Source: Rhodanobacteraceae bacterium (lineage in GTDB: Bacteria; Pseudomonadota; Gammaproteobacteria; Xanthomonadales; Rhodanobacteraceae). From it: a stretch of 64,000 bases of DNA. The stretch spans positions 1 through 64,000 of the forward strand of contig SCQU01000023.1 of the NCBI GenBank assembly GCA_004299555.1, given 5' to 3'. Shown here piece after piece: positions 12,065 through 26,487 of this stretch. Positions within the stretch are counted from its first letter, which is position 1. Each line of letters starts with the position of its first letter. Under the pieces are notes generated by a model. It made no database searches and was not told the origin of the DNA. It worked only from the letters and a program-made list of their open reading frames with translations. The translations under genes were made by a program, and so were the position numbers.

Positions 12065-12069
12065 AATTC

Positions 12070-12130
12070 GCCGAGGGGCGCTGCACCCGTGCACTCACGG
12101 TCAGGCTCGGCATTCCACCCAACAGCGCCC
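12070..12130 (+). promoter_or_regulatory. S-adenosylhomocysteine (SAH) riboswitch
   Basis: Sequence and pairing fit the SAH riboswitch class. P1 is GCCGAG (12070-12075) with CTCGGC (12106-12111). A P2-type hairpin is CCGTG-CACT-CACGG (12087-12100). The pseudoknot is GGGCGCTG (12076-12083) with CAGCGCCC (12123-12130), eight perfect pairs reaching from inside P1 to downstream. The conserved strings CCGAGGGGCGCTGC and CAGGCTCGG are present. SAH binding is known to raise expression of downstream SAH-recycling genes, and the next gene is ahcY. The ribosome-binding site GGAG (12139-12142) lies just beyond the pseudoknot. Confidence 0.95.
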
Positions 12131-12149
12131 GACGAACCGGAGACCATCC

Positions 12150-13574
12150 ATGAACGCTGTCGCCCAAACTTCCGCTCCCCACGACTACAAGGTGCGCGAC
12201 CTGTCGCTGGCCGACCTCGGCCGCAGGCGCATCACCATGGCCGAAGAGGAAATGCCCGGCCTGATGCAGATCCGCGCCCGCTACGCGCCGCAGCAACCCC
12301 TCAAGGGCGTGCGCATCACCGGCTCCCTGCACATGACCAAGGAAACCGCGGTGCTGATCGAGACACTGGTGGCGCTTGGCGCATCGGTGCGTTGGGCCTC
12401 GTGCAACATTTTCTCGACCCAGGACGATTGCGCCGCGGCGATCGCCGCCGACGGCATCCCGGTGTTTGCGTGGAAGGGCGAGACCCTCGAGGAATACTGG
12501 CAGTGCACGCTGGATGCGCTGACCCACCCAGGCCAGAAGGGCCCGGAGCTCGTCGTCGATGACGGCGGCGATGCGACGCTCCTGATCCACAAGGGCGCCG
12601 AGATGGAACACGGCGACCCGTGGGTCGAAGCGCCGGGCGCCAACCACGAGGAGCAGGTCATCAAGGATCTGCTGAAGAAAACCCGCGACGAACGCCCTGG
12701 CTTCTGGACCAGGGTTGCCTCCGAATGGCGCGGCGTGTCGGAAGAAACCACGACCGGCGTGCATCGCCTGTACCAGATCGCCGAGGCCGGCAAGCTGCTG
12801 GTGCCCGCGATCAACGTCAACGATTCGGTCACCAAATCCAAGTTCGACAACCTCTACGGCTGCCGTGAATCGCTGGCCGACGGCATCAAGCGCGCGACCG
12901 ACCTCATGATCGCCGGCAAGGTCGCGGTCGTCTGCGGCTATGGCGACGTCGGCAAGGGCTGCGCGCACTCGCTCAAGGGTTTTGGCGCCCGCGTCATCGT
13001 CACCGAGATCGACCCCATCTGCGCGCTGCAGGCCGCAATGGAAGGCTTTGAAGTGGCAACGGTCGAAGACACCCTCGGCACCGCCGAAATCTACGTCACC
13101 ACCACCGGCAACTGCGACATCATCACGCTCGAGCACATGGCGCAGATGAAGAACCACGCGCTCGTATGCAACATCGGCCACTTCGACAACGAGATCCAGG
13201 TCGACCGCCTGCAGCAGGCGACGACCCACACCAACATCAAGCCGCAGGTGGACCTCTACACCTTCCCCGATGGCCACTCGATTTATTTGCTCGCGGAAGG
13301 CCGGCTGGTGAACCTGGGCTGCGCGCACGGCCATCCGTCGTTCGTGATGTCCAACAGTTTCAGCAACCAGACCCTCGCGCAGATCGACCTGTGGCAGCAC
13401 AAGGACAGCTACGAGAAAAAGGTTTACCGGCTGCCGAAGAAACTGGACGAGGAAGTCGCGCGCCTGCATCTCCACCAGATCGGCGTCAAGCTCACCCGGC
13501 TCTCGCAGAAGCAGGCCGACTACCTTGGCGTACCGGTGGAAGGGCCCTACAAGGCCGATCACTACCGGTATTGA
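12150..13574 (+). CDS. ahcY: S-adenosylhomocysteine hydrolase
   Basis: NAD-dependent enzyme that splits SAH into adenosine and homocysteine, relieving product inhibition of methyltransferases and feeding homocysteine to MetE. The 474 residues include the ~40-residue insertion of the longer bacterial form. Visible are [15 protein letters not shown], the NAD-binding [17 protein letters not shown], the substrate region [37 protein letters not shown], and the C-terminal KADHYRY whose Lys/Tyr reach the neighbouring NAD site. ATG 12150 follows GGAG by 7 bases. Expression is expected to rise with SAH through the riboswitch in its leader. Confidence 0.98.
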
Positions 13575-13625: not shown

Positions 13626-15080
13626 TCAGGTTTTCGGCCGCGAGGTCGACTCGGCAAAGCGCGCCAGTCCAGACTCGAACGGCAGGTAGTGCCGCCAGCG
13701 TCCGACCGAGGTCGTGTACACCGGCTGGCGCGCCTGCCACACGCTGGCCGACTGCACCGGCGCATCCTCGAGCGTGGCCGCGCCGCCCGCGCGTGCCGGC
13801 GCACCGATGAACGCGCGCAGACGCACCAGGGTCGCGTCCGCGTCGCCGACCAGGTCTTCGTATTCGAGCTCAAACACCGGCACCGGCAGGGTCTCACACC
13901 AATGCCGCATCAACGCATCTTCGCCGGCCATGAAGGCTGCGATCGTATCGAACCCGTACGCAAACGCCATCTCGGGATAAGCGAAATCCTGGCACCACAG
14001 CGAAAGCGCGGTGTCGCGCGGACTCCGGCGCAAGTGGATCACCCTCGCCTGCGGGAACAGTGCGGCCACGATGTGCAGCCAACGAAAATTGAGCGGGTCC
14101 TGATCGAGGTAGTACGGTGCAGGCGCGTCATCCTGCACTGCGAGCATGCGATAGAGGCTTGCGGATTCGTCCAACGCAAGCCGGCTCCCCAGGTGTTTGC
14201 CCGCGACCAGCTGCCCGGCGATGAACCGCAGGGCACGCAATTCGCCACGATCGCGCGCGCCCGTGGCGTGCGCCAACAGCGACGCGGTCAGCGTGGTTCC
14301 GGTGCGCGGGACGCCAACGATGAAGACGGGCCGGAAAGCCGAATCCGCGCCTGCCGATGCCGCGGCGACGCGCTCCTGCCTTCGTACGCCGACAAACCGC
14401 TCCCAGGCGCGGGCGTCCCATGGCTGCGCCGCGCGCACCATGGCGTTGGCAGCGCGAAGCGTCGGCGCGGCTTCGGCATACTTGGCAAGGTCACCCTGTG
14501 CCTTGGCGAGCGCGAAACCCGCGGAGGCCCGCGGGCGCGGCGGATGGTGCGCGTCGCCGAAGTACGCTGCGAAGCGCGCGATTTCCGGATCCGCGGCATC
14601 GGTGTAGCGGCGGGTGTTGGCCAGCGCGCCGAGGACGTGGTGCCGGTCCAGATCAACACCCGCCTCGAGCGCCGCGACATATCGCGACCTGGCCGCCGTA
14701 AAATCACCGGACTCGCGGGCGATGTGGCCCGCCAGCAGCAACAGCTCCGGTGGCGCTCCGGGACGCGCCATGGCTTCCCGGCAAATCTGCTCGGCGACGC
14801 GGTGGCGGTCACACTGCCGGACGAACCACACGCATCGCAGGCACAGCCCCGGGGTGAACGCATTGGCTTGGCAACACGCCAACAGTACCTGCGCCGCCGC
14901 GCCCATGCGCCCGCGGCTTTGCAGGACCCGTGCAAGCAGCATCGCCGCATCCTCGCGCGCGGGTTCACGCGCCAGGACGCCACGCAACAACACTTCGGCC
15001 GTTTCCGTATCACTGCGCTGGAAGCACGCATCGGCCGCTGCGACCTGGTCGGCGTCGGAAACTGGACCCGTAACGCGCAT
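13626..15080 (-). CDS. TPR-repeat sulfotransferase (ST1, DTALSLW subtype)
   Basis: Predicted PAPS-dependent sulfotransferase with an N-terminal TPR-like helical half (about 1-225 of 484 residues) and a C-terminal catalytic half. The 5'-phosphosulfate loop is FIVGVPRTGTTLTASLLAH (VPRTGTTL at 257-264) and the 3'-phosphate site is VIHLRRSPRDTALSLW. The C-terminus (SVWQARQPVYTTSVGRWRHY) is shared with ST3. Start ATG 15080 is chosen for its strong GGAGG upstream, although the frame opens further. It is divergent from ST2 across 95 bases, with TATGAT as a candidate -10. The substrate is unknown; TPR-fused enzymes of this fold often act on proteins or bulky acceptors (inference). Confidence 0.85.
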   Translation of the reverse strand: MRVTGPVSDADQVAAADACFQRSDTETAEVLLRGVLAREPAREDAAMLLARVLQSRGRMGAAAQVLLACCQANAFTPGLCLRCVWFVRQCDRHRVAEQICREAMARPGAPPELLLLAGHIARESGDFTAARSRYVAALEAGVDLDRHHVLGALANTRRYTDAADPEIARFAAYFGDAHHPPRPRASAGFALAKAQGDLAKYAEAAPTLRAANAMVRAAQPWDARAWERFVGVRRQERVAAASAGADSAFRPVFIVGVPRTGTTLTASLLAHATGARDRGELRALRFIAGQLVAGKHLGSRLALDESASLYRMLAVQDDAPAPYYLDQDPLNFRWLHIVAALFPQARVIHLRRSPRDTALSLWCQDFAYPEMAFAYGFDTIAAFMAGEDALMRHWCETLPVPVFELEYEDLVGDADATLVRLRAFIGAPARAGGAATLEDAPVQSASVWQARQPVYTTSVGRWRHYLPFESGLARFAESTSRPKT

Positions 15081-15175
15081 GCTTCCTCCATGGCAAGGAC
15101 GCCCCTTATCATAGATGGCGCGGTTACGGCGATGATCGTCACCCGCACGCCAGCCACGCCACATGAGGTTTCAAG

Positions 15176-16759
15176 ATGAACGCACCACGGCTCGACGGGC
15201 TCGACAGCGACGCATCACAACAGGTCATCGCAGCGGCACAGGCGCTTGCCATCGGCCGCGCCGATCAGGCGGAAATCCAGCTCGGACCTGCCCGCAAACG
15301 CTATTCGGAGCATCCTGAAGTCCTGCGGTTGTACGCGGGTATCGCGAGCCTCCGGGGCCGGCATGGCGAAGCCATCGCCAGCATGCGGCAAGCCGTGGCC
15401 CTGCGGCCCCGGGACGCGTTGTACTACAACACGCTGGGCACGGTACTGGGAGCGAGCGGCGACTTCGATACCGCCATCACCGAGCTGAAGCGCGCCTGCG
15501 AACTTCAGCCGGGCCTGGGGGTTGCATGGTTCAATCTTGGCGTCATGCTGTCCCGTTGCGTGCGTACCGACGAGGCCGCCCAGGCATTGCAGCGCGCGGT
15601 ACAAATCGACCCGGACAATGCGGAAGCCCACGCGCTCCTGGCCGACCTGCTGCGGATGCGTGGGCGGAGCGAGCAGTCCGCAGCCGAGTATCGCCGGTTG
15701 CTGCAGGCACGCCCGTGGTCCGGATCGGCGTGGTGGGGGCTGGCGGCATTGCGCAGCGGGGCACTCACCGCCGGGGACGTTGGCAAGCTGAGCGCCGCCC
15801 TCGGCAACAGCCAGGTGCCCGACGATGATCGCATCGCCATCGGCTTTGCGCTCGCCAAGGCGTTTGACGAACAGGGCCGCTACGACGAGGCCCTGGGCGC
15901 GCTCAAGCAGGCAAATGGCATCGCGCGTCTGCGCGGAAAGTGGAACGCCTCGGCCTTCAGCGCGACCGTTGATGCGATCAACCGCGCCTTCCAACCGCCG
16001 GTCGCATCGGCAAGCCCGGCGGCGCTTGGTGCCGGCGCCATCTTCATCGTGGGCCTGCCGCGCTCGGGAACGACACTGGTCGAGCAGATCCTTGCGTCGC
16101 ACTCGGCCGTGGAAGGCGCCGGCGAACTGCCGGATTTGCCGCTGGTGCTGGCTGAAGAATCGCGCCGCCGCGGCGCCCCGTATCCGGACTGGGTGAAGAC
16201 CGCGCAGCCCGACGATTGGCTGCGCCTCGGCGAGCGTTACCTCGAGCGCACCGCGCATTGGCGCCGGCGCCGTCCGCACTTTACGGACAAGCTGCCGGCC
16301 AACTGGATGAACATCGGCGCCATCCGCGCAATGTTGCCGGGCGCGCACATCATCGCGTGCCGGCGCGATCCGCTGGAAACCTGCTTTTCCTGTTACCGCC
16401 AGCTGCTGCCCGAGGGCAGCGAATACGCGCGGACGCCGGAAGACCTCTGCGCCTTCTGGACGGACTTCAACCGCACGGTCGAGGGATTCGCGGCCGTGCA
16501 TGCATCGCACCTCCACCAGCACAGCTATGAAGGGTTGCTCGCGCACCCCGAGGCCAGCATCCGCAGGCTTCTGGAAGCCTGCGGCCTGCCGTTCGAGGCG
16601 GCGTGCCTTGCGTTCCATGAGACGACCCGCGAAGTGCGTTCGCCCAGCGCATCGCAGGTACGGCGCCCGCTCGATCCCAACACCGCGCGCGCACCACACT
16701 ACGGCGCGTTGCTGGATCCGTTCCGGAAGGGGCTTGGTCTGCCATTGCTCGGAGGCTGA
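15176..16759 (+). CDS. TPR-repeat sulfotransferase (ST2, YGALLDP subtype)
   Basis: 527 residues. The N-terminal half (about 10-235) contains several TPR motifs (for example ALYYNTLGTVLGASGDFDTA and AVQIDPDNAEAHALLADLLR). The catalytic half has the PAPS loop FIVGLPRSGTTLVEQILASH (Pro295-Thr300) and 3'-phosphate motif IIACRRDPLETCFSCY. The Asp-Lys of HFTDKLPANWMNIG and the C-terminal HYGALLDPFRKGLGLP segment are shared with ST4. A GAGG ribosome-binding site precedes ATG 15176. First gene of a pair: its last codons (GGAGGC) hold the ribosome-binding site of ST3, 4 bases away, so the two are translationally linked. Confidence 0.87.
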   Translation: MNAPRLDGLDSDASQQVIAAAQALAIGRADQAEIQLGPARKRYSEHPEVLRLYAGIASLRGRHGEAIASMRQAVALRPRDALYYNTLGTVLGASGDFDTAITELKRACELQPGLGVAWFNLGVMLSRCVRTDEAAQALQRAVQIDPDNAEAHALLADLLRMRGRSEQSAAEYRRLLQARPWSGSAWWGLAALRSGALTAGDVGKLSAALGNSQVPDDDRIAIGFALAKAFDEQGRYDEALGALKQANGIARLRGKWNASAFSATVDAINRAFQPPVASASPAALGAGAIFIVGLPRSGTTLVEQILASHSAVEGAGELPDLPLVLAEESRRRGAPYPDWVKTAQPDDWLRLGERYLERTAHWRRRRPHFTDKLPANWMNIGAIRAMLPGAHIIACRRDPLETCFSCYRQLLPEGSEYARTPEDLCAFWTDFNRTVEGFAAVHASHLHQHSYEGLLAHPEASIRRLLEACGLPFEAACLAFHETTREVRSPSASQVRRPLDPNTARAPHYGALLDPFRKGLGLPLLGG

Positions 16760-16763
16760 CACG

Positions 16764-18296
16764 GTGGCAGCCACCGGCACCGTACAGGACTGGCTCGACG
16801 AGGTTCGTTCGTTGGTCATGGCCGGTCGCCCGCAGGCAGCCCTGGACATGCTGGCGTCCGCACTGGCCAGCTACCCGGACGCAGCAGATTTGCGCCGTGC
16901 GCAAGCCGGCATCCTCGACCAGCTTGGACGCAAGGCCGAAGCAGAGGCACAGTTCCAATGGTTGCTGGTACGTGACGCGGGCGACCCAGCCTCGGCGTTT
17001 CCACTCGCGCGCCTGCTGAAAGACCAAGGGCGCGTGGCCGCCGCCGGCAAGGTCATCTGCACCTGCCTTGCCCATGATCGCCACCGCCACGACAGCGACC
17101 TTGCCATCCGTGCGGTCGAACTGCTGAACGACTGCGACCGCAAACGCGAGGCCGCCGACATCGCCGAGGCGGCGATCTCGGCCAACCCCGGCGACCCGCG
17201 GTTGCACGCCTATGCCGGCATGCTGGCCATCCAGCTTGGGGACTTCGCCCGCGCCCGCTCGCGCTACCTGTTCGCACTGGAACATTCAGGCGGCGCCTGG
17301 GAATGGCACGCACCGCTCGGTCTGGCCACGGCACAGCGCTACCCCGATGCTTCCCACCCTGACTTCGCGCTGTTCCGCGCCGGGCTTGGCCGGCGCGAGC
17401 TATCGGACCGGGGGCGGGCCGAACTCCACTTTGCGCTGGGCAAGGCCAACGATGATGTCGGCGATTACCGCGAGGCAGCGCAACACTTCCAGGAAGGCAA
17501 CTCGACACTGCGGCACTTGGCCCGATGGTCGCGCAAGGCGTGGCGGCGCGCAATGGACGCACGCTTGGCTGCGCGCCCATTGACGCACACCGCGCCACCC
17601 GCCGCGGATTTCACCCCGATCTTCATCGTTGGCATGCCCCGTTCCGGTACCACGTTGCTGGCACGACTGCTCGCGCAATGTGCGGATGTTTGCAATCGTG
17701 GCGAACTGCCGTGGATCGCGCAGCTTTCAACGCAGCCTGCGTTGGCGGGGGACCCAGGCAAATCCGCCCTTCAACGCGCCGCCGAGTTCTACATCGCGCA
17801 TACGCGTCGCGATGATTCGGACGGTGCGCGCTGGTTCATTGACAAGCAGCCGCTGAACATGCGCTACCTTGATCTGGTGTTTGCAATGTTTCCCGCTGCG
17901 CGGGTCATCCAGTGCCGGCGGGGCGCGCGCGACACGGCGCTTTCACTCTGGATGCAGTGTTTCCTTGAGGACATCCACGGCTACGCCCAGGATTTCGAGG
18001 ACATCCGCCTGGTGATGCGCGACGCTGAAAAGTTGATGGCCCACTGGCACCAAAGATTCCCTGGCGCAATCAAAACCGTCGACTACGAATCACTCGTGGA
18101 AAATCACGATGCGGTGGTGGGCCAACTTGCCTCCTGGATCGGGCTACGGGGCCATGGGTCACGCGGTGATCCTCCGCCCGGATCCACGATCAGCACCGCA
18201 AGCCTGTGGCAGGCGCGGCAACCGGTCACCACACGATTCGTTGGACGTTCCCGGCACTACACGCCCTACCTGCCAGGGCTGGCACGCATCCGCTGA
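16764..18296 (+). CDS. TPR-repeat sulfotransferase (ST3, DTALSLW subtype)
   Basis: 510 residues from GTG 16764, chosen because GGAGG lies 8 bases before it and it follows the ST2 stop by 4 bases. The N-terminal half is TPR-like (EAEAQFQWLLVRDAGDPAS, ARSRYLFALEHSGG); the catalytic half has FIVGMPRSGTTLLARLLAQ (Pro292) and VIQCRRGARDTALSLW. The C-terminus SLWQARQPVTTRFVGRSRHY aligns with ST1, so ST1 and ST3 form one subtype on opposite strands around ST2. Substrate unknown. The 3' end is 31 bases from the converging ST4 gene. Confidence 0.85.
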   Translation: MAATGTVQDWLDEVRSLVMAGRPQAALDMLASALASYPDAADLRRAQAGILDQLGRKAEAEAQFQWLLVRDAGDPASAFPLARLLKDQGRVAAAGKVICTCLAHDRHRHDSDLAIRAVELLNDCDRKREAADIAEAAISANPGDPRLHAYAGMLAIQLGDFARARSRYLFALEHSGGAWEWHAPLGLATAQRYPDASHPDFALFRAGLGRRELSDRGRAELHFALGKANDDVGDYREAAQHFQEGNSTLRHLARWSRKAWRRAMDARLAARPLTHTAPPAADFTPIFIVGMPRSGTTLLARLLAQCADVCNRGELPWIAQLSTQPALAGDPGKSALQRAAEFYIAHTRRDDSDGARWFIDKQPLNMRYLDLVFAMFPAARVIQCRRGARDTALSLWMQCFLEDIHGYAQDFEDIRLVMRDAEKLMAHWHQRFPGAIKTVDYESLVENHDAVVGQLASWIGLRGHGSRGDPPPGSTISTASLWQARQPVTTRFVGRSRHYTPYLPGLARIR

Positions 18297-18327
18297 CCGC
18301 GATCCATCGAGCCGCGTCCGGCCCGCC

Positions 18328-19986
18328 TCAGGCGTGTCCGGTCGATGGCACACCCTTGTCGGCAGACGGCAAGCCCAGCGCGGCGCGCAACGGATCAAGC
18401 CGGGCACCGTAGCCGGCAGTGATGCTGCGGTGCCGGTGGAGTGGTTGCCGCACCTGCGCTGCACTCAAGGTATTTACGCTGCGCGACATTTGATGGGGCG
18501 CAAGGCAAGCGCGATCGAAACTGAGCCCGCAAAACGCAAGCAACGACCGAATCTCTGCTTCCGGATTTTCGGTAAGGCGCTCGTAGCCCTGCTCGTGCAC
18601 GTGTGCCGGATCGCGCGTGGACCACGTGGAAGCTGCCTGATCAAAGGCTTTCCAGAACGTGCCGAGTTGATCGAAGTCGTAGCTGAATACCCAGCCCTGG
18701 TCAAAGTATTGCTTGAAACAGGACCAGCAGTTTTCCAGCGGGTCGCGCCGGCAAATGATGATCCGTGCCCCAGGCAACATCGCGCGAATCGCCCCCATTG
18801 CCTGCCAGTTGTTGGGCATCTTGTCTGTCGAAAACCGGCGCACGGTCCGGAATCTGGCCGTACGTGCAAGGTAACACTGGCCCATCCGGGTCCAGTCGCG
18901 CGCAGACCGGCTGGGCACCCAATCAGGGAAAAACTGGTGCAGACGGGCGGACTCGTCGGTCAGCACCTGCGCCACGTCGCCAAGCTCACCCGCACCACAT
19001 ACCTCTGGATGTGACGCGAGGATCTGCTCGACCAGCGTGGTGCCCGAGCGCGGCATTCCGACGACAAAGATCACTTCCTTGCCGAGATCGGGGTCCTCGG
19101 CGGCCGTGCCCGGTTCGAGCAGCGCCGCTTGCACGCCGCGCACCTGCCTTGCAAACCTCTCGACGTCCCAGGCAGAAAGTTCCTGCTTGCGGCGCGCATT
19201 GGCTTCTACCAGCAGCGCGAAGGCCTCGTCATATTTACCGCGCGCCTCACATACCCGCGCCAGCGCAAACTCGATGGCGGTCCGTTCACCCTCGTCAATG
19301 GCGCGCCCCCGCAACAGTGCGCGCATTTGCGCGGCCTCGGCATCAGTTACCGGCACCGTCTTGATATCCGTGAGGCTGATCCACGCGGCGCCGTAGGCCG
19401 GCTCCAGCGCGATGGCACGGCGCATCGCTGCCGCGCCATCGGCAACGCGCCCGCAGGCGACCAGCACATCGCCCAACTTGAGATGCAGCGGCGCATGCTC
19501 GGGCGCCAGCCGCACCGCGCGTTCAAGATACGCAAGTGCGCGCTCGGGCTCCCGCTGCCGCGCCAGGTGGGCACCCACGTCAAACAACGCCGTCGGCGAA
19601 TCCGGCAGCCGTCGCAGCGAGGCATCGCGGATCTTCCAGGCCGTGTCGATGTCGCCCGCTTCCTCGCACACCTGCGCATACTGCCAATAAACCAGGGGCT
19701 CGTCTGGAACCGTGCGCAATGCCGCTTCGAAATTCGCCGTCGCCGCGTGCACATTGCCAATCTTCGCGAGCAGCAATCCATACAAGCGCAGCACATCCGG
19801 CTGGCTTGGCGCGAACGACAATGCCTGCTTCAGCGCCGCTTGCGCGCCCTGGTCATCGCCCGAGCCGAGCGCATCGCTGGCACGCTGGATCCAGCCGCGC
19901 AAAGGCGCCGGCAGATGCGCAAGACGGGCTTGCGTTGCCACGAGATCCGCCGCCGGGGGTTCGAACAAACGATCGCCCAGCGCCAC
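18328..19986 (-). CDS. TPR-repeat sulfotransferase (ST4, YGARLDP subtype)
   Basis: 552 residues from GTG 19986, which is one base after the ST5 stop codon (TGA-G-GTG), so translation is coupled to ST5. There are several N-terminal TPR motifs (GNVHAATANFEAALRTVPDE, RALAYLERAVRLAPEHAPLH). The catalytic domain has FVVGMPRSGTTLVEQILASH (Pro312), STDKMPNNWQAMG and IIICRRDPLENCWSCF; the C-terminal ITAGYGARLDPLRAALGLP matches the ST2 subtype. Second gene of the ST5-ST4 pair downstream of the TonB receptor. The acceptor substrate is not recognisable. Confidence 0.87.
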   Translation of the reverse strand: MALGDRLFEPPAADLVATQARLAHLPAPLRGWIQRASDALGSGDDQGAQAALKQALSFAPSQPDVLRLYGLLLAKIGNVHAATANFEAALRTVPDEPLVYWQYAQVCEEAGDIDTAWKIRDASLRRLPDSPTALFDVGAHLARQREPERALAYLERAVRLAPEHAPLHLKLGDVLVACGRVADGAAAMRRAIALEPAYGAAWISLTDIKTVPVTDAEAAQMRALLRGRAIDEGERTAIEFALARVCEARGKYDEAFALLVEANARRKQELSAWDVERFARQVRGVQAALLEPGTAAEDPDLGKEVIFVVGMPRSGTTLVEQILASHPEVCGAGELGDVAQVLTDESARLHQFFPDWVPSRSARDWTRMGQCYLARTARFRTVRRFSTDKMPNNWQAMGAIRAMLPGARIIICRRDPLENCWSCFKQYFDQGWVFSYDFDQLGTFWKAFDQAASTWSTRDPAHVHEQGYERLTENPEAEIRSLLAFCGLSFDRACLAPHQMSRSVNTLSAAQVRQPLHRHRSITAGYGARLDPLRAALGLPSADKGVPSTGHA

Positions 19987-19987
19987 C

Positions 19988-21835
19988 TCAGCACTCCGTC
20001 GCAGTCATCGCGTCGGCGGCATAACCCCAGTGTTCCAGCATGGGCCGCAGGATCGGCAGCACCGGTTCGAAGTACTCGCGATAGCGCTGCCAGCGACCGA
20101 TACCCTTGCGGTTGATGGGCTCGATCACCTGTGAATAGCTGGGTGTTGCAATATAGCCTTTCTCGCGTGCCCGACGCGCGAAACCAAGCATTGCCTCGGC
20201 GTCGCCAAGCTCGAGGAAATCCGTGATGCGGCGCGACTGGTCCAGAGGGTCGGCCACCAGGTCTTCATACTTGGAGATGAAGACGTCCGGCTTGAACACG
20301 TCTACATGGTAGAGCCAGTGTTGCATGGCATCGACATAGGCCGTCGCCAGCACCTTCAGGTTTTCGCATATCACCGCCAGGCTGCTGGACATGAAGTTCT
20401 GCATGTAACAGCTCAACAACACGTCGCACGGGTGCCGCACCGCAAGGATGTATTTCGCGGCAGGAAACATGCGATACATCATCGGCAGCCACAGCATGTT
20501 CATCGGGTTTTTGTCGACCAACCGCGTACCCCAGTCACGCTGGACCTTTCCGCACGCCAGGATCAGATAGCCTTTGCGCAATTCATCGCAATCGCGCTGA
20601 TCGAGCTTTTCAAGATCGCGCGGGATCTCCACCCCCAGGCTGTGGTCAAGCTGCGTTGCGAGCATGTTGAAGAACGGCCGCTCATCCATCGACTGCAGCC
20701 GCGGGTGCGCGTCCAGCATCTGCTCCAGCAACGTCGTACCCGAGCGCGGAAAGCCGACCACGAATACCGGGGACTGCGCCGCCGCAGGCGCGCGCAGGGC
20801 CGGCCACTTCCCGTACTGGGGTGCGGTCACGCGCGGATTCTGGTTGGGCAGGGTTCGCGCGCCCGGGGCAAACCACTGGGGGTGCGTGGCTCGAATATCG
20901 GCAACCTGTATCGCATGTGCCCGCTCCAGTGCCGCCATCGTGGCGACCCGGTCGTCCAGCTTGTCGCATATCTTCGCCAGGTCGAACCAGTGTCCGCAGT
21001 GGTGCGCATCCTGCGGTCCGCTGTGTTCAAGGAGCTGCCGTGCTGCCTGGTAGTCTCCACGTCGAGCAGCCAGATGGGCACGTTGATGGTCGGCTTCCCG
21101 CACGTCGCGGGGAGTCATCTGCGCCGCCGCCGCTGATGCCATGACGCCAACCAACAGTGCCTCGGCGTCCGACAGCCGGTTCACGCGTTCATACAGCGCC
21201 GAGAGACGCAGCCGCAGGCGCCAGTCCACGGGGTGGCGTTGCGCAAGATCCTCAAGCAACTCCAGGGCCCCGTCGATGTCACCTTGATCTTTCAGTGCCT
21301 CCGCGAGCTCCGACTGCAGCGCATCGCTCATCGGGATCCAGGTGCGCCAGGGGCGCAACAGGTTTTCGGCGCGCGCATCCCGGCAGGCTGAACAGGCACG
21401 CGCTGCGTGGATGCGGACAGAGGGCGAATCCGGCGCCTTGCCAAATGCCCGCAACAACGTATCCCGCGCGGCGTCGGGCTTGCCAAGCTCCATCTGGAGC
21501 AAGCCGTGCTGCTCCAGCCACTCCGCGTCATCTGGCGCAAGACGCACCGCAGCTGCCGAGGCCGTCTCGGCCGCCTCAGGATCGCCCGACTCGCGCAGGG
21601 CGTTCGTCAGGTTGCGCCAGTGCGCCGGCTCGTCCGGATACCGCTCCGCGAGGGATCGGTAGATGGCAATTGCGCCGGGCCGGTTACCCAGCCGCCACAG
21701 GCTCAGCGCATGGAGGATCAGTACCTCGACGGCGTCCGGGCTGCCGGCGAGCTGTTCGCGGCACAGGCGCTCGGCCAGCGCCGCATCGTTGCGTTCAAGC
21801 GCCGCCACGATCGCCGCGGTGGTAGTAACAGGCAT
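19988..21835 (-). CDS. TPR-repeat sulfotransferase (ST5, distinct subtype)
   Basis: Largest of the five, 615 residues. There is a long N-terminal TPR region (about 1-330) with many repeats, then a catalytic domain with FVVGFPRSGTTLLEQMLDAH (Pro363), LVDKNPMNMLWLP and ILAVRHPCDVLLSCYMQNF. The C-terminus GYIATPSYSQVIEPINRKGI and WQRYREYFEPVLPIL is unlike the other four and is the form most often seen in stand-alone TPR-sulfotransferases. Start ATG 21835 has no ribosome-binding site and lies 13 bases after the T-run of a terminator, with TATACG as a possible -10 in between. Expression may therefore be leaderless or depend on readthrough from the TonB gene. Confidence 0.87.
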   Translation of the reverse strand: MPVTTTAAIVAALERNDAALAERLCREQLAGSPDAVEVLILHALSLWRLGNRPGAIAIYRSLAERYPDEPAHWRNLTNALRESGDPEAAETASAAAVRLAPDDAEWLEQHGLLQMELGKPDAARDTLLRAFGKAPDSPSVRIHAARACSACRDARAENLLRPWRTWIPMSDALQSELAEALKDQGDIDGALELLEDLAQRHPVDWRLRLRLSALYERVNRLSDAEALLVGVMASAAAAQMTPRDVREADHQRAHLAARRGDYQAARQLLEHSGPQDAHHCGHWFDLAKICDKLDDRVATMAALERAHAIQVADIRATHPQWFAPGARTLPNQNPRVTAPQYGKWPALRAPAAAQSPVFVVGFPRSGTTLLEQMLDAHPRLQSMDERPFFNMLATQLDHSLGVEIPRDLEKLDQRDCDELRKGYLILACGKVQRDWGTRLVDKNPMNMLWLPMMYRMFPAAKYILAVRHPCDVLLSCYMQNFMSSSLAVICENLKVLATAYVDAMQHWLYHVDVFKPDVFISKYEDLVADPLDQSRRITDFLELGDAEAMLGFARRAREKGYIATPSYSQVIEPINRKGIGRWQRYREYFEPVLPILRPMLEHWGYAADAMTATEC

Positions 21836-21847
21836 GGCAACAAGCCG

Positions 21848-21887
21848 TATAAAAGAAAGGGTCGCACGGAGGATACCCGTGCGACCC
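21848..21887 (-). terminator. Intrinsic terminator of the TonB receptor gene
   Basis: On the minus strand a perfect 11-bp stem (GGGTCGCACGG with CCGTGCGACCC, 7-base loop) is followed by TTTCTTTTAT. It starts 27 bases after the receptor stop codon and ends 13 bases before ST5. It should cut the receptor transcript and reduce sulfotransferase expression from it. Confidence 0.85.
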
Positions 21888-21914
21888 GAAAAGACAACCC
21901 GTGACGCTGACCGA

Positions 21915-24900
21915 TCAGAAGTTCACGGTCATGCGCGCCCAGTAGTAGCGGCCAATCGTATCGAAGTCGCCCGGGTCGGTGTTGGCATTGAGCACGTTGT
22001 TGGCATACAGCATGGGTGGCTGTTTGTCGAACACGTTGTCTACGCCAACCTGGACGGTGGTATTGAGCGGCGCGATGTTGTACCCAACCATGACGTCGTT
22101 GTAGGTGAACGAGCCATAGTGCAGTACCAGCGGCCCCGCCGGACCATCGGACGGGAACGACGACAACGCGGTGTCACCCTCGGCCGGATTGGGCGAGCCC
22201 GAGCGGAACGGGCTGTTGTAGCGCATCGTCCACTGGGCATTCCACGGCCCCAGCTGCCAGTCCAAGGTGCCCTGTGCCCGCACCCGCGGGAAGAAGCACA
22301 CACCGCTGCCCGCAAACGGGCAGGAACTGCCCAGGGACGTACCAAAGCCACCAAACATCCCGGGGGCGTTGCGCACCTGGTTGACGCCTTGGATGCCGGG
22401 CGCGGTCTGGATCTTGAACTCGCTGAGGTACGTCGCCTGCAAGCCAATACTGAACTGGCCAAACGCGAAGTCCGGCAGTTTGTAGTTGGCGGCGAAGTCC
22501 ACGCCACGCGTATCAAGACGGCCCAGGTTGGCGGTCGGCTGGAGGACCTGGCTGAGCTGGCCCTGGAATCCCGGTGCATTGGTACGCGTGATCAGCGGGC
22601 AGAACTGGAGCAAGCCGTTGAAGCACGAGTTCAGGATGGTTTGTGCGGTCACCCCGGTGATCACGTTGTTCAGGTAAATGCGCCACAGGTCAGCCTGTAC
22701 CGTGAGTCCCGGCACAAAGTGCGGCGAATACACGGCACCGAAGTCGAACGACTTGCCCTTTTCCGGGCCCAGCGGGAAGTGCGCGTATTCCGAACCGGAG
22801 TTCAGCGCCTTGATCTGCTGATGCGATGCGACCAGCGTGTTCACAAACGTGCCGTCGGTCGGCACAAACTGGCATGCCGGGTTCGGCGCGGTGATGTGAT
22901 CGCACGGATCGGAAGTCAGGATCGGCGCCGAACTGGTTGGCGACGCAAATACGGCGCCGATGCCAGGTGCCCGGAAGACCCGCGACACGGTGCCACGCAG
23001 CAGCAGGTCGTTGATCGGCCGGTACTCGAGGCCGATCTTCCAGTTGGTGGTGCTGCCGAAGGTCGAGTACTTGGAGTAGCGGTCACCCAGGGTCAGATTC
23101 AGCACATGCGCGAAGGGCATGTCCTTCAGGATCGGGATGAAGGCTTCTGCGTACACTTCCTTGACGTTGTACCCGCCTTGCAGGTGGGCGCCGCAAGCGC
23201 TTCCCAGGACGCAGGTACCGGTCGCGGGGTTCAAGAGCAGACCCGAGCTGACGACGTTGTTGGTGTACTCCTTGCGGTAGCTCGCACCGGCAGCCAACTG
23301 CACCGTGCCGGCAGGAAGGTCGAACAACCCGCCACTGACGTCGGCGTGATAGATGCGCTCGATCGAGTAGTCGTCGGCCAGTGCCGGCGAGGACGCCGCC
23401 TGGATAACGGCAATGGTGTTGGGATTGTTGAGGTTGAACGGATCAAACGGCGTGCAATCACCCAGCGAAATCGGAGCCGCCGCGGTACCGCACATGACGG
23501 TATTCACCGGCCCGTTGGCCGGATTCGTGTTCATGAACGACGGGCCGGCCTCCTCGTTGAGGATGGTCTGGTTGGGCAGGCCACGGTCGGTCGAGATATC
23601 CCGGACGTGGCCGTAGTTCTCACCCACATCCCAGGTCCAGTTCCGGCTGCCGAGGTTGATGTTGCCGCGGAAGCCGAAAATGAGCTGGTCGGTCGTGATG
23701 GCGCCCGCAAAATTACGCGGCCCCGCCGGAACCATGCGTCCGGTGTAGGTGGCGCCACTCGGAGTGAAGTCCACACCAAACGGGTTGTAGTAGTTCTGCG
23801 CCGAAATCTTGAGTCCGGTGTTGAAGCCCAGCGGGCCCGTGCCGACCACCGCCGGTGCGAACTGGCTGCCGGAACTGGTCTTCTCGTGATACACCGTGCC
23901 GTAGAAGTCGATGTTGTCGGTAAGGTGGTAGACCCCCTTGAAGAACGCATTCGTGCGCTCCTGCGGGGTCAGCAGGTAGTTGACCGAGGCATAGTTGTAA
24001 CGGTCGCTCTGCCCCGTGGCCGGGTCGGTACCGAAGCAGTGGTAGTCAGACGTCGTCGGGTCCGCGCCGGCCGCAAACGTGCCGCTGTTGAGCGACAGGC
24101 TGGAGCAGCCCTGCAGGCTCGCCGGCAGGTTCGCCTTGGCGGATGCCGGCAGGAAAATGCGGTTGCGCAATGCGAAGGACGATCCGCCAACGAAGGTTGT
24201 CCAGCCCGACCCTGGCTGCGCCAGATAGGTCAACCCGGGAGGCGCAGAACCGCCGTACGCCTGCTTGCTGCCGTAGGTGTTCGTCGCGGTCATGGACAGC
24301 GCATTCGCAGAGAACTTGCGCGCGGCCTGCATGATCGGATCGAACTTGTTGTAGTCGATGCCCGCCAGGATGCTGCCCTTGTCCGACGTCTGGCCGAACA
24401 CGAAGCTCACGCCCTTGCGCTCGCCGTCATTGTGGTCCGAGATACCGTAGTTGGCGGTGAACTGCGCGCCCTGGTAGTTGGACTTCAGGATGATGTTGAT
24501 GACGCCGCCGATGGCATCGGAACCATAAATGGCCGATGCACCGTCGGTCAGCACTTCGATCCGCTCGACCGCAGCGGTCGGAATGGAGTTCAAGTCGTTG
24601 TTGATGATGCGCTGACCATCAACCAGCACCAGGGTGCGGCTGGCACCCAAGCCACGCAGGCCGACGAGGGTCTGGCCGGTCGCGCCGCCGTTGTTGACGC
24701 TCGGGTTTTCAACGCCACCGGTGATCACTGGTAGGTTCTGGACGACATCGCCCAAGGTCAGCTTGCCGGTCGCCTGGATCTGCTGGGAGGTTATGGCAAC
24801 CACGGGATTGGACGTTTCCAGATCCACGCGGCGAATATGCGAACCCGTGACCACGATGGTCTGCAGGGTTTGCGGTTGATTCTGGCTGCTTTGCGCCGGG

Positions 24901-25007
24901 GTTGTGGTCTGCGCGAAGGCAGTACCCGCAACACCCACGGCAGCGACGGCACCCAGCGAAAGGGCCGTTTGTACGGCCTTGGACAGCTCACTGCGGTCGA
25001 GTCTCAT
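21915..25007 (-). CDS. TonB-dependent outer-membrane receptor
   Basis: 1030-residue energised outer-membrane importer. A signal peptide (about 1-32, ending GTAFAQ) is followed by a plug domain (about 48-165; QTIVVTGSHIRRVDLETSNP, RVLVDG-like VDGQRI, EVLTDGASAIYGSDAIGGVI) and a long 22-strand beta barrel ending with the usual C-terminal Phe (ARMTVNF). The SHIRRVDLETSNPV TonB-box region is typical of the large, substrate-diverse receptor family of Xanthomonadales and Caulobacterales, often linked to peptides or oligosaccharides rather than siderophores. Start ATG 25007 (MRLDRSEL) with GGAG upstream is preferred; an in-frame TTG lies at 25019. The ligand is unknown. Confidence 0.95.
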   Translation of the reverse strand: MRLDRSELSKAVQTALSLGAVAAVGVAGTAFAQTTTPAQSSQNQPQTLQTIVVTGSHIRRVDLETSNPVVAITSQQIQATGKLTLGDVVQNLPVITGGVENPSVNNGGATGQTLVGLRGLGASRTLVLVDGQRIINNDLNSIPTAAVERIEVLTDGASAIYGSDAIGGVINIILKSNYQGAQFTANYGISDHNDGERKGVSFVFGQTSDKGSILAGIDYNKFDPIMQAARKFSANALSMTATNTYGSKQAYGGSAPPGLTYLAQPGSGWTTFVGGSSFALRNRIFLPASAKANLPASLQGCSSLSLNSGTFAAGADPTTSDYHCFGTDPATGQSDRYNYASVNYLLTPQERTNAFFKGVYHLTDNIDFYGTVYHEKTSSGSQFAPAVVGTGPLGFNTGLKISAQNYYNPFGVDFTPSGATYTGRMVPAGPRNFAGAITTDQLIFGFRGNINLGSRNWTWDVGENYGHVRDISTDRGLPNQTILNEEAGPSFMNTNPANGPVNTVMCGTAAAPISLGDCTPFDPFNLNNPNTIAVIQAASSPALADDYSIERIYHADVSGGLFDLPAGTVQLAAGASYRKEYTNNVVSSGLLLNPATGTCVLGSACGAHLQGGYNVKEVYAEAFIPILKDMPFAHVLNLTLGDRYSKYSTFGSTTNWKIGLEYRPINDLLLRGTVSRVFRAPGIGAVFASPTSSAPILTSDPCDHITAPNPACQFVPTDGTFVNTLVASHQQIKALNSGSEYAHFPLGPEKGKSFDFGAVYSPHFVPGLTVQADLWRIYLNNVITGVTAQTILNSCFNGLLQFCPLITRTNAPGFQGQLSQVLQPTANLGRLDTRGVDFAANYKLPDFAFGQFSIGLQATYLSEFKIQTAPGIQGVNQVRNAPGMFGGFGTSLGSSCPFAGSGVCFFPRVRAQGTLDWQLGPWNAQWTMRYNSPFRSGSPNPAEGDTALSSFPSDGPAGPLVLHYGSFTYNDVMVGYNIAPLNTTVQVGVDNVFDKQPPMLYANNVLNANTDPGDFDTIGRYYWARMTVNF

Positions 25008-25509
25008 TGCACTCTCCAAACGTTTGTAGATGTGTGAAACCAGTTTCGGGAAAGGTCCCCATCAGGATCGCCGACGGGGCCTCACTGGAACCCTCGGCTG
25101 TCGCATCCTAACAACTTTCTAACCCATTTGGAATCCCCGTATTACACGATGATGCCTTGGCGCGCGTCCCGAGTGATGGACGAGGACGGGTGTGTGGTCG
25201 CCAGATTGGTTTGGCCCCTTCCTCGGCCAATCGGCCACGCGCAGCGGCACTGCGCACAGATACCGACCCACCGATCCTACTGCTTCAAGTGAAATGGTTG
25301 TTAACAAGGCGGCGGCCAGTCAGCACTTGTTCAGAAACCATGATCGTGCGGTACCGCCCGCCGGTGGGACCAAGACGCACACGCGCATTGCGGCCGGCCG
25401 TCGGGCGCGCTGCGCGTCGACAACATCGCGGCAACACGCGCCGGTGCGCGCCGGCGCGCGACGGCTGCAAGAAGAGGTTGGCTGCGCGAAGACCCCGCGG
25501 CAGGTCGGC
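25008..25509. other. Intergenic region upstream of the TonB receptor gene
   Basis: About 500 bases with no supported gene, less GC-rich between 25080 and 25330 than the surroundings. On the minus strand TTCCAA, 17 bases and TAGGAT form a weak candidate promoter about 90 bases before the receptor start, and TGTAAT (plus-strand 25141-25146) is another -10-like string. Short reading frames here have no recognisable features. No precursor-peptide gene could be made out. Confidence 0.5.
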
Positions 25510-26487
25510 TCAGAGGTCCTGGTGGTACTGGACGTAGGGTACGCGGCCCTGGTCGGGCGCGGTGGCGCCCGAGCCAAACAGCAGCGACGAGTGGCCGGAC
25601 GTCCACAGGTTCTGGGCGCCAAAGTTCAACTCGCCCCGCCACGGCAGGCGCACGCTGATGCCAAGGTCGATTCCACTCCAGCGCTGGTCCTGGCCCAGGC
25701 CGGCACCCGGCAGGCCCGGCTCCAGCACGTGGCCGACGATGGCGCCGCGCACGCTGCCGCGCTGGATGCCGAAGCTCAGCGTGGTCTGGTCCAGCGTGTC
25801 GTCGGGCGCAAGGCCCGAGCCCGGCAGGAAATGCACGCGACCAACGCTCGCGCCAACGTCCACGCTGGTACCCGGCGCCAGCCTGACCTCACCGCGCGCA
25901 CTGAGGCTGGTGGCGGTGCTGTTGCGAAACCACAACGGCGCCGCGACATCGGCTCCGCCCGCGGCCGGCAGCACGCGCGGGAGCAGCGCTTCGGGCGTGC
26001 GTACCGCCGCACCCTGCGTATCACTGTAGGCGCGGCCAAGTGACAGGTCGAGCTTCACGCCGTGGCCTGCGTAGCCGGCGCCCACCTCGCCGCGGCGCAC
26101 GCCATCGGCGGGCGCAATGCCCGCGCACCCCAGCGTTCCGGGCGCGCAGGACGGCAGCACCGAGTCCCAGCGCTCTTCGCTCAGGCTCGCGTGCGCGGTG
26201 AGGCCGGGCTTGGTCGTAAGCTCGACGCCCGCGCCCGTTGCAAAGGAACGCCCATCCACCAGTGCCGCCACGCCCGTGGGCGCCGGCGTGGTGGCGCGGC
26301 CCTTGGCGGTCACGGCCAGCGTGGTACCCGCGTGGTGCCACACCGGCGTGCGCGCTGCGTGTTTGCCTGCATGCGCCACCGGCGGCAGCGAGGGAATCAC
26401 CGGCATCGGCGCGACCTGGCCCAACGCCCACAACGGCAGCGCGAGGCCGGCACCGGCAAGGATGATTCTGGCAAGCAAGGTACGCAT
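25510..26487 (-). CDS. Secreted protein, probable outer-membrane beta-barrel, function unknown
   Basis: 325 residues with a clear signal peptide (MRTLLARIILAGAGLALPLW then ALGQV). The remainder is rich in Gly, Ser and alternating hydrophobic/polar stretches (GVKLDLSLGRAYSD, TSLSARGEVRLAPGTSVDVG, GIDLGISVRLPWRGELNFGA), which look like amphipathic beta strands of an outer-membrane barrel. It ends YVQYHQDL, without the C-terminal Phe most barrels have. Two Cys are close together near residue 115 (SCAPGTLGC). On the minus strand TACAAT (plus-strand 26554-26559) is a good -10. It is upstream of the TonB receptor in the same orientation but separated by 500 bases. Recognised only at the level of predicted architecture. 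Confidence 0.65.
   Translation of the reverse strand: MRTLLARIILAGAGLALPLWALGQVAPMPVIPSLPPVAHAGKHAARTPVWHHAGTTLAVTAKGRATTPAPTGVAALVDGRSFATGAGVELTTKPGLTAHASLSEERWDSVLPSCAPGTLGCAGIAPADGVRRGEVGAGYAGHGVKLDLSLGRAYSDTQGAAVRTPEALLPRVLPAAGGADVAAPLWFRNSTATSLSARGEVRLAPGTSVDVGASVGRVHFLPGSGLAPDDTLDQTTLSFGIQRGSVRGAIVGHVLEPGLPGAGLGQDQRWSGIDLGISVRLPWRGELNFGAQNLWTSGHSSLLFGSGATAPDQGRVPYVQYHQDL

Follow-up and report, generated by a model that had tools for sequence, protein, structure and literature searches.

Predicted TPST-like sulfotransferases encoded beside a TonB-dependent receptor in Rhodanobacteraceae: candidate modifiers of an exported neighbour

The window analysed here is a 64,000-nucleotide stretch (positions 1 to 64,000) of contig SCQU01000023.1 from a Rhodanobacteraceae bacterium (assembly GCA_004299555.1). 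It contains five sulfotransferase (ST) genes, ST1 to ST5 (13626-21835), which adjoin a gene for a TonB-dependent receptor (21915-25007); we refer to the six genes as the island. With somewhat less than even confidence, we propose that these enzymes, which carry tetratricopeptide repeats (TPR), are cytoplasmic protein sulfotransferases whose substrate is a neighbouring exported protein, probably the receptor, modified ahead of its export. The observations behind this proposal are the similarity of the enzymes to animal tyrosylprotein sulfotransferases (TPSTs), the intact motifs for binding 3'-phosphoadenosine-5'-phosphosulfate (PAPS), an adenosine-5'-phosphosulfate (APS) kinase in the genome, the linkage to receptors, the TPR architecture and the hydroxylases found in the islands of relatives. 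More doubtfully, bacteria of this order, and some from elsewhere in the phylum, may possess a dedicated machinery putting sulfate, and in many relatives also hydroxyl, on outer-membrane receptors. In the same tentative reading, enzymes of two kinds, TPST-like and 2-oxoglutarate-dependent, would be guided by TPRs and encoded next to the receptor, forming a bacterial counterpart of the tyrosine-sulfated animal receptors. The features are as follows.

13626..15080, minus strand: ST1, sulfotransferase with a weak TPR half, 484 residues, ST1/ST3 subtype
15176..16759, plus strand: ST2, TPR-sulfotransferase, 527 residues, ST2/ST4 subtype
16764..18296, plus strand: ST3, TPR-sulfotransferase, 510 residues, ST1/ST3 subtype, starting 4 bases past ST2
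18328..19986, minus strand: ST4, TPR-sulfotransferase, 552 residues, ST2/ST4 subtype
19988..21835, minus strand: ST5, TPR-sulfotransferase, 615 residues, the commonest subtype downstream of receptors
21915..25007, minus strand: TonB-dependent receptor, 1030 residues, Plug and barrel
25008..25140, minus strand: conserved leader, putative promoter region, directly before the receptor, recognised by DNA conservation
25510..26487, minus strand: small outer-membrane-type protein, 325 residues, upstream of the receptor

Catalytic domains and subtypes of the sulfotransferases

The receptor, ST5 and ST4 are encoded on one strand and ST2 and ST3 on the opposite strand, with ST1 at the far end (13626-25007); neighbouring ST genes are separated by 1 to 95 bases. 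All five enzymes belong to Sulfotransfer_3 (PF13469), with scores of 97.2, 134.4, 116.6, 134.5 and 120.6 bits for ST1 to ST5 against a cut-off of 27. An earlier note, made from the letters of this DNA, had described five TPR-sulfotransferases with intact PAPS motifs. The motifs are indeed present in all five, namely P-R-(S/T)-G-T-T, the 3'-site Arg...Ser and the later S-x-x-Q...P, and so are the subtype motifs and C-terminal strings quoted there. TPRs exceed the Pfam cut-off in ST2 to ST5, whereas the best TPR match of ST1 reaches 22.2 of the 25 bits needed, and ST1 also has Gln in place of the usual Lys (DQDPLN versus DK.P.N). The TPR half of ST5 matches the TPRs of O-GlcNAc transferase, which likewise has a TPR superhelix before its catalytic domain but differs in that domain and in chemistry.

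The three subtypes suggested in the same note appear as clades on a tree of the catalytic domains (116 of 131 found). ST1 and ST3 form one clade (support 0.841), ST2 and ST4 another (0.974), and ST5 falls in a separate clade (0.993). An initial ST profile contained TPR sequence, and 20 of the 147 genes so labelled had no match to the catalytic profile; later counts use corrected labels. Ten of those 20 were searched in Pfam, giving five TPR-PF13759 oxygenases, four TPR-PF05118 hydroxylases and one gene (locus L092; L numbers denote loci fetched and G numbers genomes compared) with TPRs only.

PAPS-site and active-site residues, the loss of which the note had named as a ground for abandoning its idea, are invariant or nearly so in both ST alignments (A1, A2). 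The aligned residues are catalytic in TPST2. The Glu is kept in 109 and the Lys in 105 of 112 STs, a set drawn from 147 candidates after removal of 29 for an absent motif pattern or for length and of 6 duplicates, by which construction the 5' motif counts are fixed. TPST is the nearest solved sulfotransferase to the catalytic domain, by sequence as well as by fold, followed among sulfotransferases by the CurM and olefin-synthase domains by fold. The note's likening to a tyrosine-sulfating enzyme is strengthened by this comparison. TPST1 and TPST2 (3ap1, 5wri, 8w5z) share with the island enzymes the fold, the 5' and 3' PAPS sites and the aligned Glu, Lys and late Ser. Unlike these animal enzymes, the island STs, TPST-like as judged from sequence, are bacterial, have an N-terminal TPR array, occur as several subtypes per island and are linked to a receptor.

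The neighbouring protein is a TonB-dependent receptor by its Plug (PF07715, 79.9 bits) and barrel (PF00593, 110.7 bits) domains, and it lies below every NCBIfam cut-off among the matches listed. The host genome is a draft of 2.98 Mb, in which 11 of the 12 PF13469 matches exceed the cut-off. The absence of a PAPS-synthesis gene nearby was noted earlier; the same genome encodes an APS kinase at C2:29730-30173 (E 1.4e-68), on a contig other than that of the island.

Linkage to receptors and conservation in relatives

The association was tested with Pfam searches only, in five genomes, using frame length as a proxy for the TPR half. Of 38 long-frame STs, 20 have a Plug domain no more than 6 kb away, compared with 2.63 expected by random placement; counting separate places gives 14 of 22. 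None of the 13 short STs has one at that distance (0.99 expected). At least one of the 38 (G000 C23) is actually a short enzyme by its gene call, and at least one long-frame ST scored as a miss has a partner overlooked by the Plug distance, as a receptor-like gene lies 193 bases away (L063). Among 66 receptors picked by receptor similarity, three of them at the end of the available stretch, 45 are no further than 6 kb from an ST. In 34 the receptor gene is followed directly downstream by an ST (32 of ST5 type and 2 of ST2 type; 33 on the same strand). ST family and receptor family go together in 67 of 73 pairs, with a mean of 47 and a maximum of 60 in 2000 shuffles; 58 of the 73 partners belong to one large family.

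Co-conservation of the set with its receptor, which the note had named as a test through neighbourhood comparison, is borne out among 15 congeners examined (G001-G015). In the loci fetched, an island-type receptor with a downstream ST5-type gene is present in 11 of them (G001-G005, G009-G014), and in L052, L053 and L054 an opposite-strand oxygenase gene sits between the two. As for the remaining congeners, the G008 contig stops just past the receptor, G007 has an ST-less receptor 2 kb from a contig end, G006 gave no receptor match and G015 is represented by a second receptor-ST pair only. All five subtypes occur in window order in G014 (L043) and G011 (L044), as well as in G012 (L037, L038), where an extra receptor precedes ST1; G013 (L041) shows four subtypes plus one cut by the edge of the fetched stretch, and G001 (L039) has the island without ST4. 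The receptor followed by ST5 is the most widespread unit of the island. A second receptor and ST5-type pair is found in the host genome (L013) and in each of the 11 congeners from which it was fetched (L077, L079-L088 for the further loci), and in 8 of these 12 loci it adjoins an hslV-like gene, read by eye. Among ten loci matched by the receptor in named genomes, Dokdonella accounts for five, Dyella for two and Rhodanobacter for one; the other two are from metagenome bins, of which one is labelled Rhodanobacteraceae. The cultivable environmental species Dokdonella fugitiva combines the receptor with ST5-type and ST2-type genes (L027, L028). One genome (G031; L058 and L059) has three receptors of the family within about 18 kb, one of which is followed by an ST2-type gene.

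The islands of relatives hold, among the STs, free PF13640 enzymes and PF05118 Asp/Asn hydroxylases, together with TPR-fused PF13759 oxygenases and TPR-fused PF05118 hydroxylases. A hydroxylase lies within 6 kb of 19 of the 66 receptors, and all 19 are also near an ST. The window island has none of these oxygenases or hydroxylases, and the host genome has no PF13759 match. In the five genomes hydroxylases alone are not concentrated at receptors: PF13759 gave 5 matches in two genomes, one within an island, and PF05118 gave 18, one within a fetched island. That two chemistries, sulfation and hydroxylation, share a common TPR front end would point to a protein acceptor. A further place (G004:C1:2258692-2261177) combines an ST match with two Asp/Asn-hydroxylase matches, the nearest Plug being more than 47 kb away.

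Other TPR-STs of the family adjoin Oar-like receptors (PF25183, PF13620) and a third receptor group (L016, L107, L110). In L017 and L097 a TPR-ST adjoins genes for S53 pro-kumamolisins, which flank it on either side in L017 and are possibly another exported substrate. In L099 (5126-11906) a TPR-ST is flanked by two proteins, each of about 505 residues, that begin with signal-like sequences and match nothing in Pfam. Such varied neighbours fit a modified exported neighbour at least as well as uptake of a ligand by the receptor.

Possible mechanism and competing explanations

We propose the following steps. The enzymes would act in the cytoplasm, where the TPR half would hold an unfolded neighbour prior to export, most likely the receptor but perhaps the small outer-membrane protein. 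Sulfate would be transferred from PAPS by the catalytic half onto tyrosine, or other hydroxyl, side chains, and the different subtypes might serve different sites. The modified protein would then be exported and inserted, and its sulfates may alter the binding of ligands or partners. If this is true, sulfation would be a common surface modification across a whole bacterial family and beyond, encounters of the receptor with ligands, phages or bacteriocins could change, and bacterial TPST-like enzymes would become available for study and use. Bacteria may in this way chemically decorate their surface receptors in a hardly studied manner, and the question is directly testable because the candidate substrate is encoded next to the enzyme.

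Each of TPST-like enzymes, RaxST and TonB receptors has been described before. In the open-access PMC literature, outside which most subscription journals and all preprints lie, no description of TPR-sulfotransferases beside TonB-dependent receptors was found among the matches listed. The same literature yielded no report of TPR-fused TPST-like enzymes and TPR-hydroxylases systematically paired with outer-membrane receptors, and bacterial protein-tyrosine sulfation in it concerns the RaxST/RaxX case, again among the matches listed.

Several results weigh against a receptor-directed modification. A long-frame ST is near only 16 of 123 Plugs. Deep pairing of ST and receptor families, with the nearest ST more than 1.2 substitutions per site away, holds in 53 of 73 cases against a shuffled mean of 47 and maximum of 61, which is not significant. 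In a phylum sample, ST5 matches at E 1e-30 were found in 28 of 398 genomes, including the host genome, two further members of its family and one other genome from its order. Twenty loci were fetched from the 24 positive genomes outside the order, and a recognised receptor stands beside the ST in only four of them (L151, L163, L164, L166). This is a lower bound, as the receptor search used only a profile of the island receptor's family; in 10 of the 20 loci, where the first gene caller gave few genes or none, genes were called with a cruder program. Those four loci also carry a hydroxylase, and in G146 (L145), outside the 20, a receptor fragment adjoins the ST. Moreover, ST-less paralogues (L042, L045, L029, L030, L035) nest within ST-linked receptor clades, and several share a genome with an island (L042 in G013, L045 in G014); G025 has a family receptor but lacks any match to PF13469 at E 1e-10. 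ST-linked and ST-less receptors are not told apart by any tyrosine column of the receptor. The better columns, in 41 ST-linked versus 21 ST-less receptors, are Y778 (85% versus 57%) and Y238 (61% versus 29%), both confounded by descent; the test was repeated with corrected labels, and the only changed ST-positive label (L092) lay outside it. Finally, an orphan ST2-like gene (L018, L098) occupies a conserved chromosomal spot with no exported neighbour recognised.

A rather unlikely alternative, though one with precedents, is that the target of sulfation is a secreted ligand, a peptide or otherwise, that leaves the cell and returns through the receptor, in the manner of sulfated methanobactins or RaxX-like peptides. 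A sulfotransferase and a TonB-dependent transporter occur together in some methanobactin operons (PMC3621798), as STs and receptor do in the island. MbnS there is a PF00685 protein, encoded by two operons of Methylocystis, and its proposed role is sulfonation of a threonine in the small peptide. The precursor lies within the operon there, whereas here five PF13469 enzymes, most of them clearly TPR-fused, occur without one. Neither an MbnA precursor nor MbnB is present among the island genes, the scope of the MbnB search being the island and not the rest of the genome. RaxST of the Xanthomonas raxX-raxSTAB system sulfates the RaxX precursor and was modelled on TPST2 by its authors (PMC6637879). 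Like the island STs it is a bacterial sulfotransferase compared with TPST2, but in the same report its PAPS arginine is at residue 11, with no N-terminal TPR half, while the corresponding residues are 259 in ST1 and 364 in ST5. A raxX-like precursor and RaxA/RaxB are absent among the island genes, distant copies lying beyond the search.

Sulfation together with 2-oxoglutarate-dependent hydroxylation would also be compatible with a modified peptide. However, the island genes include no precursor or exporter. The earlier note had likewise seen no precursor gene nearby, and this is borne out, since the ST gaps of 1 to 95 bases are too short and the gap before the receptor contains a stretch whose DNA is conserved in all frames and is not one protein. 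Moreover, one type of ligand fails to explain the presence of at least three receptor groups (not joined at 200 bits) and S53 pro-peptidases beside TPR-STs. The note had suggested that the set sulfates several sites or substrates and that the product is taken up by the receptor; this interpretation is supported in part, and uptake of a product found no direct support. We keep ligand uptake under consideration because a sulfated peptide and a linked TonB-dependent transporter exist together in methanobactin operons.

It is less likely again that the TPR-STs are general modifiers acting in trans on many exported proteins, with the receptor as one client and their location partly historical. The orphan enzymes, the STs beside S53 pro-peptidases and signal-like proteins, and the ST-less receptor paralogues in island-bearing genomes are in line with such a role, but the long-frame STs are concentrated beside receptors, and ST and partner families go together among close relatives.

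The sulfotransferase superfamily includes many small-molecule and glycan enzymes. It is nevertheless improbable that the island enzymes sulfate an envelope glycan, lipid or small molecule whose sulfated or parent form the receptor takes up, because the CurM and olefin-synthase domains that would favour it are more distant than TPST in sequence and fold, the TPR arrays fused to STs and to relatives' hydroxylases would argue for a protein acceptor, and the six island genes are STs and receptor by Pfam.

The receptor leader and neighbouring genes

The receptor is preceded by a gap of 502 bases. Its start is immediately preceded by 130 to 150 bases of conserved DNA, with 72 to 92% identity across 11 loci and a partial match in a twelfth. 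Neither this leader nor the small gene upstream of it figured in the earlier note. Identity is 92% in L036, 89% in L051, 82 to 89% in L043, L041, L049, L039, L040 and L053, 79% in L052 and 72% in L037 and L050; L054 matches in part. The leader is far better conserved than the receptor in some relatives, and in L051 it keeps 89% although the receptor protein is only 50% identical. Short frames in the leader match on the plus strand in all three readings, among the matches listed, indicating that it is not one protein. Counting receptors of at least 40% identity with upstream sequence, the split copy L034 included and two further starts being cut, the leader precedes 11 of 24 ST-linked, 0 of 16 ST-less and 1 of 3 undecided receptors; it is missing, for example, before the ST-linked receptors of L044, L046 and L062. 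The leader matches no Rfam family (one match, E 0.24, far below the gathering score), and it shows no sign of a conserved fold (folding z -0.17 versus shuffles, covariation term -0.02). With no known RNA and no sign of such a fold, the simplest reading of the leader would be a shared promoter or operator.

The product of 25510-26487, on the strand of the receptor, has 325 residues and a signal-like start. In 15 fetched loci its relatives precede the receptor, either immediately or with one gene in between, and they share a conserved C-terminus containing two tyrosines (PY[VI]QY.Q). One relative gave no Pfam match. The structural model is rich in beta-strands and of low confidence (predicted local distance difference test score, pLDDT, 59), and no solved structure matches it at E 0.001 or better. 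The small protein is weakened as a substrate of the STs, because the second conserved receptor-ST pair (L013, L077, L079-L088) occurs without it.

A clade of ST-less receptors (L031, L032, L060, L071) adjoins a gene of about 600 residues that looks GH127-type glycosidase-like by eye, hinting at a carbohydrate ligand for this receptor branch. In the window, an S-adenosylhomocysteine (SAH) riboswitch (RF01057, 48 bits) at 12067-12137 stands just before the gene 12192-13574, which reads as adenosylhomocysteinase; it is the sole Rfam match in the window reaching its gathering score.
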